Below, piece by piece: positions 59,908 to 64,000 of a stretch of 64,000 bases of DNA (position 1 is its first letter; the number at the start of each line of letters is the position of its first letter). Position numbers and translations under genes: made by a program. Source of the stretch: Polyangiaceae bacterium (lineage in GTDB: Bacteria > Myxococcota_A > Polyangia > Polyangiales > Polyangiaceae); assembly GCA_019637295.1 (NCBI GenBank), contig JAHBVX010000005.1, positions 372,001 to 436,000 of the forward strand, read 5' to 3'. The notes below the pieces were generated by a model. It was not told the origin of the DNA, made no database searches, and worked only from the letters and a program-made list of their open reading frames with translations.

Positions 59908-60933
59908 ATGACGATGAACCTGCGAGTGTCGGCTCTGTTGACGGCTATCGTCGTGGCGTCCGCCGGCTGCGGCGAAGACGACCCCGGTGGGGGTAAGGCG
60001 GGGAGCGGCGGGGGCAGCAGCGGCAGCTGCAAGCCAAGCGCGGAGAGTTGCTACGTGGCGGGGGCCGAGGGCCCCGGGAACGAGTGCATGGCGAAGGCCG
60101 ATTTCAGCGGCAGCGCCGTGGCGCAGCTGCGCGTCGCGTCACACCAGGTCAAGAGCCCCACGACCCTGGCCGCGCCGTTCATGCAGAACGCCATCATCAC
60201 CAAGAAGAGCGCGCTGTTCGAGCCGACCTGCAACCTGGACGGCACCGGGCAGTTCAACCTGCTGCTCACGGTGGACAGCGGTGCCTCCACGCTCACCCTC
60301 GCCGGGGGAGTGCCCCAAGCGCTGCTGGGACCGGCGACGGCAGGTACCTGCTACGCGCGCCTCGACGCCGGCGGGGGCATCGTCGTCGAGCCCGTGACGG
60401 CGCCGATGACTCTGGGCTCGGACGGTCAGTTCACGGCCACCTTCGGCTCGTTCGTGCTGCCGATCTACCTGGAAGACTCCGCTGACGCCGAGAAGGCGGT
60501 GCTCATGCCGCTGCACGAGATGACCGTCACCGGGAAGCTCAGCGCCGACCACAACTGCATCGGCCGCTACGCCCACGAGCGAGGCAACCCGAGCCAGTCC
60601 TGCCAACCCGGGGAGGGTCAGTTCGCCTGGGAGCCCGCCGGGCGCTACGAGGGCTACATCACCGTGACCGAGGCCGACGAGGTCTTCGTGCACTCGCTCG
60701 GGCAGACGCTGTGCGTGGTCCTCACGGGAGATCCGACGCTGTGGAAGGGCCCCAAGCCAGACCTGAACTGCAAGACCAGCCAGGGGTTCGTGGACAACGG
60801 CGGCCTGCCCAAAGGCGACTGGTGCTCGACCACCAACAGCGCCGGTGGCTGCCAGGACAGCTGGCGACTGGTCATCGACTACGCCGCCCAGGCCATCCAG
60901 ATCGGTGGCGAGTACGGCAGCGGCTGCAGCTAG
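59908..60933 (+). CDS. exported lipoprotein of unknown function
   Basis: A 341-residue protein with signal MTMNLRVSALLTAIVVASAGCG and a Gly/Ser-rich spacer. The mature part has beta-strand character (FNLLLTVDSGASTLTLAGG, TATFGSFVLPIYLED, YEGYITVTEADEVFVHSLG) and about 10 Cys that may pair. I do not recognise a family. GAGGAGG stands 6 bp before the ATG. The gene may share a transcript with the PfkB kinase. The next gene begins 141 bp later. Confidence 0.8.
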   Translation: MTMNLRVSALLTAIVVASAGCGEDDPGGGKAGSGGGSSGSCKPSAESCYVAGAEGPGNECMAKADFSGSAVAQLRVASHQVKSPTTLAAPFMQNAIITKKSALFEPTCNLDGTGQFNLLLTVDSGASTLTLAGGVPQALLGPATAGTCYARLDAGGGIVVEPVTAPMTLGSDGQFTATFGSFVLPIYLEDSADAEKAVLMPLHEMTVTGKLSADHNCIGRYAHERGNPSQSCQPGEGQFAWEPAGRYEGYITVTEADEVFVHSLGQTLCVVLTGDPTLWKGPKPDLNCKTSQGFVDNGGLPKGDWCSTTNSAGGCQDSWRLVIDYAAQAIQIGGEYGSGCS

Positions 60934-61074: not shown

Positions 61075-64000
61075 ATGCCGGGTTGGCTCAAGCACCTCTG
61101 TTTCATTCTCTTCTTGGTCGTGTTCGCCGGATGTGCGGGCAGCTGTTCGAGTTGTTCGGGCTGCGGGATGACCCCGCTGCCGGGCGGGTTCCCATCCGAA
61201 GACCGGATCGAGAACATCGGAGCGGTGCGCCTCACCGACTCGGGTCTCAAGTTCATCGGCGACAACATCGGCAACCTCGCCCCGAGTCTGCTCGGCGACA
61301 GCGCCCAAGGTAACGCTGGCGTGGTCACCTTCGAGATCCCGAAGAGCACCAACAACATCGCCCTGGGCCTGAGCGCCACCATCTGCCCCAACAACCCCAA
61401 CCCGAACGCCACGCCATACCCGGAGTGCATCGTCGAGGCCGATCTGGGCAAGGCCAACCTCACGGTAGGCACCAAGGCGCCCCACAACATCACCGTAACC
61501 GGGACCCTGGCGGTGCGGATCCGCAAGCTGCCGGTCCAGGTCACGCTGCTGGGCACGCAAGACGTGGTGCTCACCAACAATGCGTCCTGCTCCAACCGCG
61601 ACTGGGCGAACATCCCCGTGAACGTGGACGTCTCCCTCGAAGCGGACGACGATCCGAACCACGCCTCGCGCATCGGCTACACTCGGGTGCGCATCCTCGC
61701 GGTCACGATCAACCAGAACGCGCTCGAGGACTCGATCGGGTTCTGCGGCAACTTCGGCGCCACGGTGCTCAACTTCCTCAAGGGCTTCGTGCTCGGCTCG
61801 GTCACCGGCGGCCTGACCGACACGCTCGTCGAGACGATCGAGGAGCAGCTGTGCACCTCCGAGGACCCCACCGCGGGCGTGACCTGCCCGACGGGCACCT
61901 ACCCGGACACCTCCGGCGTGTGCCGCTACTGCAACCCGAACGGCAACGGCCAGTGCCCCTCGAGCGCGGAGTGCGTCTCGATGGCGCTCGGCGCGGACGG
62001 CAACATCAACCTGTCGAGCGCGCTGAGCGGGATCTCCCCTGGGGCCAAGGGTGGCTTCGACTTCCTGGCGGCCTTGGGCGGCGCGGGCCTGCGGGACGAC
62101 AACTCCGGGCACTCCTGGGGCGATCTGAACCCGATCAACAGCGGGGCCACCATCGGCATGATGGGCGGCGCCGAGCCCAAGCCCATCTCGCAGTGCGTTC
62201 CCCTCGCCAACGTCGAGAAGCCCACGGGCCTGCTGATCCCGGACGAGCTGCTGGCCAACACGGTCCCTGGCTGGACGGGGGACGGTCCGCACATCGGCTT
62301 CGGGCTCGCCGAGCGTTATCTGAACTACACCCTGGCGGCGACGTACAACTCCGGCGCGCTATGCATCGGCGTCGGCTCGAGCGTGTTCGGCTCGCTCCTC
62401 AACAGCGACACGATCGGGCTGCTCGTCCCGTCGTTCAAGGATCTGGCGCGGCAGCGGACTGCCGCGCCCCTGGCGCTGATCCTCCGGCCCCAAGAGCCTC
62501 CGTCCGCGAAGGTCGGCAACGGCACGGACATCGCGACGGATCCGACGCTCGAGATCACGCTCAACAAGCTGGGCATCGACTTCTACGTCTGGAGCAACGA
62601 TCGCTACATCCGCGGCTTCACGGCGACCTTCGACGTCGTCGCCCCAGTGAACCTGGACGTGACGAGCGAGGGGCTCGCGCCGGTCATCGACGCGGTTCAG
62701 ATCAACAACCCGGTGCTGAGCAACGCGCCGCTCCTGCGCGAAGACGAAGCGGCGGCGGCCAAGTCGCTGGCAGGCATCCTCTCGAGCCAGATTGGCTCGG
62801 CGCTCGGCGGGGCCATCAGCCCCATCGACCTCAACTCCGCGCTCGGCGGTCTCGGCCTGACGTTGGACATCCCCCCGTCGGTGCAAGGCCAGGGCAGCCC
62901 CGGCATCCGCAAGCTGGAGAAGGGCGCGGACCGCTACCTGGGCATCTTCGCCGCGTTCGGCACCGCCGCGCCGCAGCCCAAGGTGATCGCCCCGGTCGAG
63001 GTCGAGACCTTGGCCGAGGTCTCGGACAAGCGCGTCTCGCTCGAGGGCCTCGTGCTCACCACGATCACGGACGAGAACCGCCCGGTGGTCGATCTCCGAC
63101 TCTCGAGCCCGCAGGACAGCGGCGCCAAGCCCGTCGAGTACCAGTATCGAGTCAACGGCGGCCTGTGGCACCCGTGGACGTTCGACCGCAACGTGTCGGT
63201 GCGTACCCCGGATCTCTCACTGCAGGCCAAGCATCGCATCGAGGTGCGTGGACGCGTCGCCGGCCAGCCCGAGACCATGGACCGAAGCCCGGCCCAGCTC
63301 GAGGTGCGCATCGACAAGACAGCCCCATTCCTGGACGTCTCGAAGCGCGCCCGCGGCGGGAAGCTCGACCTCCACGTGCGTGACACGGTGTCCGACACGC
63401 ACGCCGTCCGTGTTCGCGTCGCGCTCGACGACCAGCCCTTCGGGGAGTGGCGCCCGGCGACCGAGCTCGCCTCGCTGTCGGTCGGCGACGCCAAGACGGT
63501 GAAGGTCGAGGCCGTCGACGAGGAGGGCAACGTCGGCACCGTCACACAGGCCATCATACGCGGCAAAGAAGACGCCACCCTGGCGGGAGACTCGGGCTGC
63601 GACTGCGGCGTCGTGGGCACGGGCGGTCGCTCCACGCTCCGCTTCGGCTTCCCTGCCCTGCTCGCGCTCGGTCTGGCGCTGTGGCTGCGCCGCCGGCGAA
63701 CGGACAAACCCGCGGCGCCGTCCCGCCGTGGGCGGTCGCCCGCTCGACGCGCGCGCGTGCTCGGCAGCTTCGCCATGATGGCGGTCGCGTCGTCCTGGTC
63801 GGGCTGCTCGTGCGGGAGCGACGACGAGGCCAAGAAGACCGGCAAGCCCGCGGGCGCCTGCCCGGACGGAGACGAGTGCGAGGTGCTGGAGCCCGGCCTC
63901 GTGGGCGCTTACGCCTCGGCCGCCGCCGCGGGGGACGGCACCCTCTGGGTAGCTGCGTACAACGACCATGGCTACGGCATCGCGCCGAGCTACGAAGAGA
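61075..64000 (+). CDS. large surface lipoprotein with internal MYXO-CTERM-like segment, truncated by window end
   Basis: An open frame of at least 975 codons from ATG 61075 to the window edge. It starts MPGWLKHLCFILFLVVFAGC, a lipoprotein signal, followed by a Cys-rich SCSSCSGCG. Beta-rich domains occupy about 40-830 (EVETLAEVSDKRVSLEGLVL and Ig-like RVRVALDDQPFGEWRPA). At residues 842-870 is CDCGVVGTGGRSTLRFGF, then ALLALGLALWLRRRR, which looks like the C-terminal sorting segment of myxobacteria, but the frame continues and a second signal-like SFAMMAVASSWSGCSCG follows near 895. No stop was found across this joint. The rest begins a repeat-like domain. Confidence 0.8.
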   Translation, partial: MPGWLKHLCFILFLVVFAGCAGSCSSCSGCGMTPLPGGFPSEDRIENIGAVRLTDSGLKFIGDNIGNLAPSLLGDSAQGNAGVVTFEIPKSTNNIALGLSATICPNNPNPNATPYPECIVEADLGKANLTVGTKAPHNITVTGTLAVRIRKLPVQVTLLGTQDVVLTNNASCSNRDWANIPVNVDVSLEADDDPNHASRIGYTRVRILAVTINQNALEDSIGFCGNFGATVLNFLKGFVLGSVTGGLTDTLVETIEEQLCTSEDPTAGVTCPTGTYPDTSGVCRYCNPNGNGQCPSSAECVSMALGADGNINLSSALSGISPGAKGGFDFLAALGGAGLRDDNSGHSWGDLNPINSGATIGMMGGAEPKPISQCVPLANVEKPTGLLIPDELLANTVPGWTGDGPHIGFGLAERYLNYTLAATYNSGALCIGVGSSVFGSLLNSDTIGLLVPSFKDLARQRTAAPLALILRPQEPPSAKVGNGTDIATDPTLEITLNKLGIDFYVWSNDRYIRGFTATFDVVAPVNLDVTSEGLAPVIDAVQINNPVLSNAPLLREDEAAAAKSLAGILSSQIGSALGGAISPIDLNSALGGLGLTLDIPPSVQGQGSPGIRKLEKGADRYLGIFAAFGTAAPQPKVIAPVEVETLAEVSDKRVSLEGLVLTTITDENRPVVDLRLSSPQDSGAKPVEYQYRVNGGLWHPWTFDRNVSVRTPDLSLQAKHRIEVRGRVAGQPETMDRSPAQLEVRIDKTAPFLDVSKRARGGKLDLHVRDTVSDTHAVRVRVALDDQPFGEWRPATELASLSVGDAKTVKVEAVDEEGNVGTVTQAIIRGKEDATLAGDSGCDCGVVGTGGRSTLRFGFPALLALGLALWLRRRRTDKPAAPSRRGRSPARRARVLGSFAMMAVASSWSGCSCGSDDEAKKTGKPAGACPDGDECEVLEPGLVGAYASAAAAGDGTLWVAAYNDHGYGIAPSYEE

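Follow-up and report, generated by a model that had tools for sequence, protein, structure and literature searches.

A MYXO-CTERM tag running into an internal lipoprotein signal joins two domains in a single reading frame kept across Myxococcota

A gene of a Polyangiaceae bacterium probably encodes a poly-lipoprotein precursor, from which an internal hairpin would be excised by a myxosortase and signal peptidase II (LspA). The gene begins in the window analyzed here, a DNA stretch of 64,000 nucleotides (G000:C21:372001-436000 in the source genome). A preliminary description of this DNA had reported a MYXO-CTERM-like segment in the middle of a protein, an open frame running through it and a second lipoprotein-like signal ending in WSGCSCG, and all three were recovered. 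The frame starts with an ATG at 61075 and is open up to position 64000; reading the same contig further showed that it continues and ends 1277 bases past the window, so that the whole gene (L002:1075-5277) has 1400 codons and encodes a single protein of 1400 residues. From N- to C-terminus this protein contains a lipobox, a tandem-TULIP (BPI-like) module, FN3-like domains, the MYXO-CTERM, a basic linker, a second helix with its lipobox, and a beta-propeller (Table 1). The part upstream of the hairpin (domain 1) comprises about 800 residues and the downstream part (domain 2) about 470. The N-terminal lipobox FAG/C (Cys20, 61132-61134) had been overlooked before.

Table 1. Features of the fused gene and its surroundings in the window. 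Slashes precede the lipobox cysteine; domain and signal assignments are predictions.
Feature	Position	Strand	Basis or remark
Upstream lipoprotein gene, MTMNLRVSALLTAIVVASAGC...	59908..60933	+	Homologue upstream in 47/77 loci
Fused open reading frame, first 975 of 1400 codons	61075..64000	+	Open-frame reading; stop past the window at G000:C21:437275-437277
N-terminal lipoprotein signal, MPGWLKHLCFILFLVVFAG/C, FAG/C, Cys20 (codon 61132-61134)	61075..61134	+	Sequence, conservation
Tandem TULIP module, BPI/LBP/CETP-like, model residues 15-601	61207..62967	+	AlphaFold2, Foldseek, VIA-align
Two FN3-like beta-sandwich domains, model residues 611-802	62995..63570	+	Predicted model, structure alignment
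MYXO-CTERM: GDSGCDCG, hydrophobic helix, RRRR; Cys842 (63598-63600), Cys844 (second Cys), RRRR 872-875 (63688-63699)	63586..63699	+	TIGR03901 positions 1-33 of 34; conservation
Basic linker, predicted cytoplasmic	63700..63744	+	Orthologue linker lengths, pN/pS
Internal type II signal, RRARVLGSFAMMAVASSWSG/C, WSG/CSCG, Cys911 (63805-63807)	63745..63807	+	Conservation, pN/pS
Start of domain 2, beta-propeller (PLL-lectin/sialidase-like kind), runs past the window	63865..64000	+	Orthologue model

The preliminary description had left two explanations for this arrangement, either a natural fusion that yields two surface lipoproteins on processing, or a frameshift or missing stop joining two genes. 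A search with the whole protein against the source genome and 58 relatives gave 25 relatives (36-68% identity) in which a single uninterrupted frame matches almost the entire query, and eight further order-level relatives have two matching segments within one open frame. A second homologue search on named genome contigs yielded 77 loci, mostly from Polyangiaceae (Sorangium, Polyangium, Minicystis, Labilithrix) and Sandaracinaceae, with finished chromosomes among them. Both domains lie in one frame at 66 of these loci, including the complete genomes of Sorangium cellulosum and Minicystis rosea; most of the others run off contig ends. More distant orthologues with an equal hairpin come from other families, some of them outside the class (L234, L241, L243, L244, L247). 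An assembly error, frameshift or missing stop would be the default assumption if only a single genome were at hand, and frames in DNA of high G+C content easily remain open, but the join occurs in dozens of independently assembled genomes. Because it is conserved as one open frame in so many relatives, such an artefact has practically no chance of being the explanation and is excluded. A stop directly after RRRR, which the preliminary description had named as the sign of an artefact, is present only in two orthologues nested among fused proteins and in homologues that consist of domain 1 alone. The fusion half of the first explanation thus holds, and its processing half is considered below as a model.

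Conservation is concentrated on the residues at which processing would take place. Cys20, Cys842, Cys844 and Cys911 are invariant across 24 diverse orthologues (32-67% identity). In a larger set consisting of 66 fused relatives and this protein (n=67), Cys842 is present in all sequences, Cys844 and Cys911 in 66 each and Arg873 in 64, and Cys20 is found in 58 of the 61 that are ungapped there. Position 910, directly before Cys911, is always a residue allowed by a lipobox (G in 63, A in three and S in one of the 67). The remaining hairpin positions are less conserved than the domains (0.37-0.47 versus 0.53-0.56). The distance from the Arg tail to the cysteine varies between 18 and 59 residues among orthologues and the frame is always kept. 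Comparison of close pairs gave a pN/pS of 0.61 (95% CI 0.49-0.74) for the linker, indicating purifying selection, and of 0.37 (95% CI 0.26-0.50) for the second signal, on which purifying selection is stronger; the domains have values of 0.32-0.34. The second lipobox also carries a CxC (residues 911-913, 63805-63813; Cys913 in 63/66) that mirrors the CxC of the MYXO-CTERM.

The internal tag has the invariant cysteine, the helix and the Arg-rich tail of the MYXO-CTERM family, with positions 1-33 of the 34 in TIGR03901 aligned. TIGR03901 matches 18 of the 24 orthologues at E<=0.1 (best 7.6e-7); the score in this protein, 16.6-17.3 bits and 14.6 bits in the genome search, lies below the cut-off of 20, which counts against the processing model. 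Its placement departs from the family, since 525 residues follow the tag. The second site has the basic n-region, hydrophobic core, small residue and cysteine of a type II signal, and is internal in the fused proteins and N-terminal in the two split orthologues. The source genome encodes a myxosortase of the MrtC type (NF040594, 288.3 bits versus a cut-off of 195, G000:C9:21317-21601), one LspA, and four Lgt-family loci (C1:1022363, C22:317791, C21:496284 and C19:230581), the extra copies of which are candidates for lipidating MYXO-CTERM cysteines. According to the published model, as outlined in PMC11980579, myxosortase cuts on the distal side of the MYXO-CTERM cysteine, which is lipidated, perhaps through Lgt; for TraA of Myxococcus xanthus the same source describes that cleavage of the MYXO-CTERM by myxosortase needs the conserved cysteines.

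Natural fissions of the gene fall into the hairpin. Two orthologues (L047 and L033) are split, both within the hairpin loop, with the first ORF stopping just past the Arg tail and the second opening with its own lipoprotein signal. In L047 the first ORF ends with GWRRRSSRRDARTKAVK, the second starts with MNARTCLVGALALTLAGVANPG/CSCG and the two overlap in TGATG; in L033 the first ends with LRRKPKQETSVAKSSNGKRGDA, the second starts at a GTG with VNRTKLFLFSVASFAGVFQG/CDCG and the overlap is GTGA. In a phylogenetic tree L033 and L047 are placed separately and nested among fused proteins (group support 0.988 for L033 and 1.0 for L047), and the fused state is therefore older than the split here. Taken singly, each split may be a sequencing error in a MAG, but both occur at the same place and both yield well-formed starts. 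In addition, five homologues that contain domain 1 only (L044, L045, L179, L203, L206) stop directly past the Arg tail. Thus an ordinary MYXO-CTERM end corresponds to the first hairpin half in these split and domain-1-only proteins, and an ordinary lipoprotein signal to the second half in the split orthologues.

To determine how often tag and lipobox occur together, we used the survey of the source genome with TIGR03901, which is unbiased because that model contains no lipobox. About 80 MYXO-CTERM matches were found, nearly all with a stop codon no more than about 50 residues away. Only four are truly internal (an 18-residue partial match at C23:340001 was left uncounted), and in all four, which belong to unrelated proteins, a lipobox follows directly. 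Besides the protein described here these are proteins on C4 and C12 and a fusion of 1346 aa on C20 (L089:5598-9635, minus strand), in which a VanY carboxypeptidase domain is followed by a MYXO-CTERM, a lipobox, an Amidase_2 domain and a second MYXO-CTERM-like end. One chain would thereby possibly give rise to two peptidoglycan hydrolases, the second of which ends in another MYXO-CTERM-like tail. With the 300-residue amidase part as query, the amidase half was often found in relatives as a separate gene that opens with a lipoprotein signal of its own (L260, L261, L264, L265), whereas genome G014 has the VanY/amidase fusion with a hairpin of the same kind. In this case the fused state looks derived. 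Unrelated proteins with a hairpin of the same build also include the lipase L215, the FG-GAP protein L213, L238, in which a metallopeptidase-like part is attached to a small protein, and L239, L253 and L254; these matches to our hairpin model are no unbiased census, since examples of this kind were among those used to build it. Kept across Myxococcota and recurring in unrelated proteins, the join has the look of an excised linker in a bacterial polyprotein, not of a sequencing error. We lean towards the view that Myxococcota reuse this hairpin as a relay of sorting tag and lipobox, by which a single polyprotein would comprise two or more surface lipoproteins; any MYXO-CTERM domain could be combined with any lipoprotein, two different intramembrane proteases would excise the hairpin and the products would strictly be made together.

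Since Pfam searches with both halves gave no convincing domain and sequence searches against the PDB nothing useful, the fold assignments are taken from predicted models. The AlphaFold2 model of domain 1 (mean pLDDT 87.8) contains two predicted TULIP barrels in a boomerang. Its best Foldseek match is BPI (1bp1, E 3.1e-14), and VIA-align gave Z scores of 17.2 for BPI (433 residues), 14.5 for LBP and 14.4 for CETP, with unrelated rows at or below 9.4. For domain 2 the orthologue L132 was modelled (mean pLDDT 94.7); the domain is predicted to form a beta-propeller, closest to lectins of the PLL type (PLL4, Z 29.7 over 299 residues with 11% identity). These assignments describe the folds of models and imply no function; it is a reasonable guess that domain 1 would handle lipids in the envelope and that its partner, domain 2, supplied in equal amount, would bind glycans or be sialidase-like. 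Domain 1 resembles the tandem-TULIP lipid-transfer proteins BPI, LBP and CETP in its predicted fold; unlike these, it belongs to a bacterial and, as predicted, lipid-anchored protein. The passage of PMC6791001 on earlier bacterial TULIP families lists only P47, OrfX2 and YceB. Downstream of the fused gene, past the window, a predicted membrane protein is encoded (L002:5700-6830), which is located nearby in 42 of the 77 loci on either strand.

From these features, we propose the following course of topology, lipidation, cleavage and surface location. Sec would export domain 1, with its BPI-like lipid-binding fold, behind the N-terminal lipoprotein signal, until the MYXO-CTERM helix, inserted from out to in, halts export, so that the Arg tail stays cytoplasmic. 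The basic linker would remain inside, and together with it the second hydrophobic stretch, running from in to out, would loop back into the translocon as a hairpin and export domain 2. Both domains would in this way come to lie on the same side, matching what each half would do alone. Lgt-type enzymes would lipidate the cysteines, and the chain would be cut by myxosortase (here MrtC) on the distal side of the MYXO-CTERM cysteine and by LspA just ahead of the second lipobox cysteine. A hairpin of about 65 residues would be discarded and two lipid-anchored proteins would be freed in a 1:1 ratio. We found no established case in which LspA acts on a signal located away from the N-terminus, which counts against this processing. 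Left uncut, the hairpin would also make topological sense as an anchor of two helices.

The leading rival makes this anchor permanent: the hairpin would hold the protein in the inner membrane by two helices, with both domains periplasmic and no cut. We regard this as unlikely. Two hydrophobic stretches and a basic loop suit a stable hairpin and some of the linkers are long, but a plain anchor needs no cysteines, whereas Cys842, Cys844 and Cys911 and the G, A or S at position 910 are conserved in an otherwise variable region, and the split orthologues and stand-alone halves bear both signals at true protein ends. The equal conservation of both cysteines also makes it improbable that only one site is used, for instance with domain 2 freed by signal peptidase II and the hairpin left on domain 1, or with domain 1 freed by myxosortase and domain 2 anchored via the second helix. 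Such use is conceivable insofar as either site could function alone, and the lipo-invert tail of NCBIfam (NF058595) is a comparable hairpin that lacks the first of the cysteines.

Two genes could also share the frame, with translation of domain 2 mostly initiating inside it, upstream of the second signal. A GTG (Val895) is located ahead of this signal in our protein and two lineages have separate overlapping genes; however, 29 of the 60 fused orthologues scored have no ATG, GTG or TTG in the required stretch, nine have an ATG, and a strong Shine-Dalgarno match is present in one. The start or ribosome-binding site that the preliminary description had considered here is therefore not conserved. 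The linker itself is moreover under purifying selection and its length changes preserve the frame. We consider this reading very improbable, and rejected an internal translation start. Excision of the hairpin by both proteases remains our preferred reading.

To our knowledge, it is rare in bacteria for a cellular polyprotein to be cleaved into separate proteins of the surface. The second products of such fusions have probably been missed throughout Myxococcota, because signal predictors do not look for internal lipoprotein signals. The fused system allows a clean test of myxosortase action in the middle of a protein, of the enzyme responsible for lipidating the MYXO-CTERM cysteine, and of signal peptidase II on a substrate that is not N-terminal; the natural split versions are ready-made controls.

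The relay of MYXO-CTERM and lipobox, its conservation and its recurrence are new as far as we found, and we did not find them described in the literature; a literature search on lipo-invert or an internal lipobox returned no papers. Already known are internal sorting tags in three systems and a hairpin with a lipobox, named lipo-invert by NCBI. The latter, the putative C-terminal anchoring domain NF058595, is the nearest named relative and likewise consists of helix, Arg cluster, helix and lipobox cysteine near the protein end. As an identity for our hairpin it was rejected (15.8 bits versus a cut-off of 37), and among the 24 orthologues three show a weak match at E<=0.1. A clear lipo-invert tail (TM-RRRR-TM-SC-Gly-rich) was observed in another Myxococcota family (L209, G178:C151); this example (53 bits) has no Cys motif before the first helix and only a short tail after the hairpin.

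Sorting tags that function away from the C-terminus are the mid-protein LPXTG (Navarre and Schneewind, 1994) and the non-terminal tripartite segment of an ArtA substrate (Abdul Halim, 2017), both as cited in PMC11980579. They depend on other enzymes and, going by that account, no lipoprotein signal is known to follow them. MXAN_5598, for which in-place processing after a gene fusion is proposed in PMC11980579, shares an internal MYXO-CTERM with our protein; it differs in continuing with an outer-membrane barrel and an OmpA domain, and the passages on it mention neither a lipobox nor a general module. There is also a likeness in parts to the MYXO-CTERM/myxosortase system itself (TIGR03901; MrtX of Myxococcus xanthus, MrtC NF040594): the tripartite tag with invariant cysteine, helix and Arg tail is the same, the genome encodes MrtC and the orthologues match the family model, whereas here the tag stands mid-protein and leads into a second export signal.
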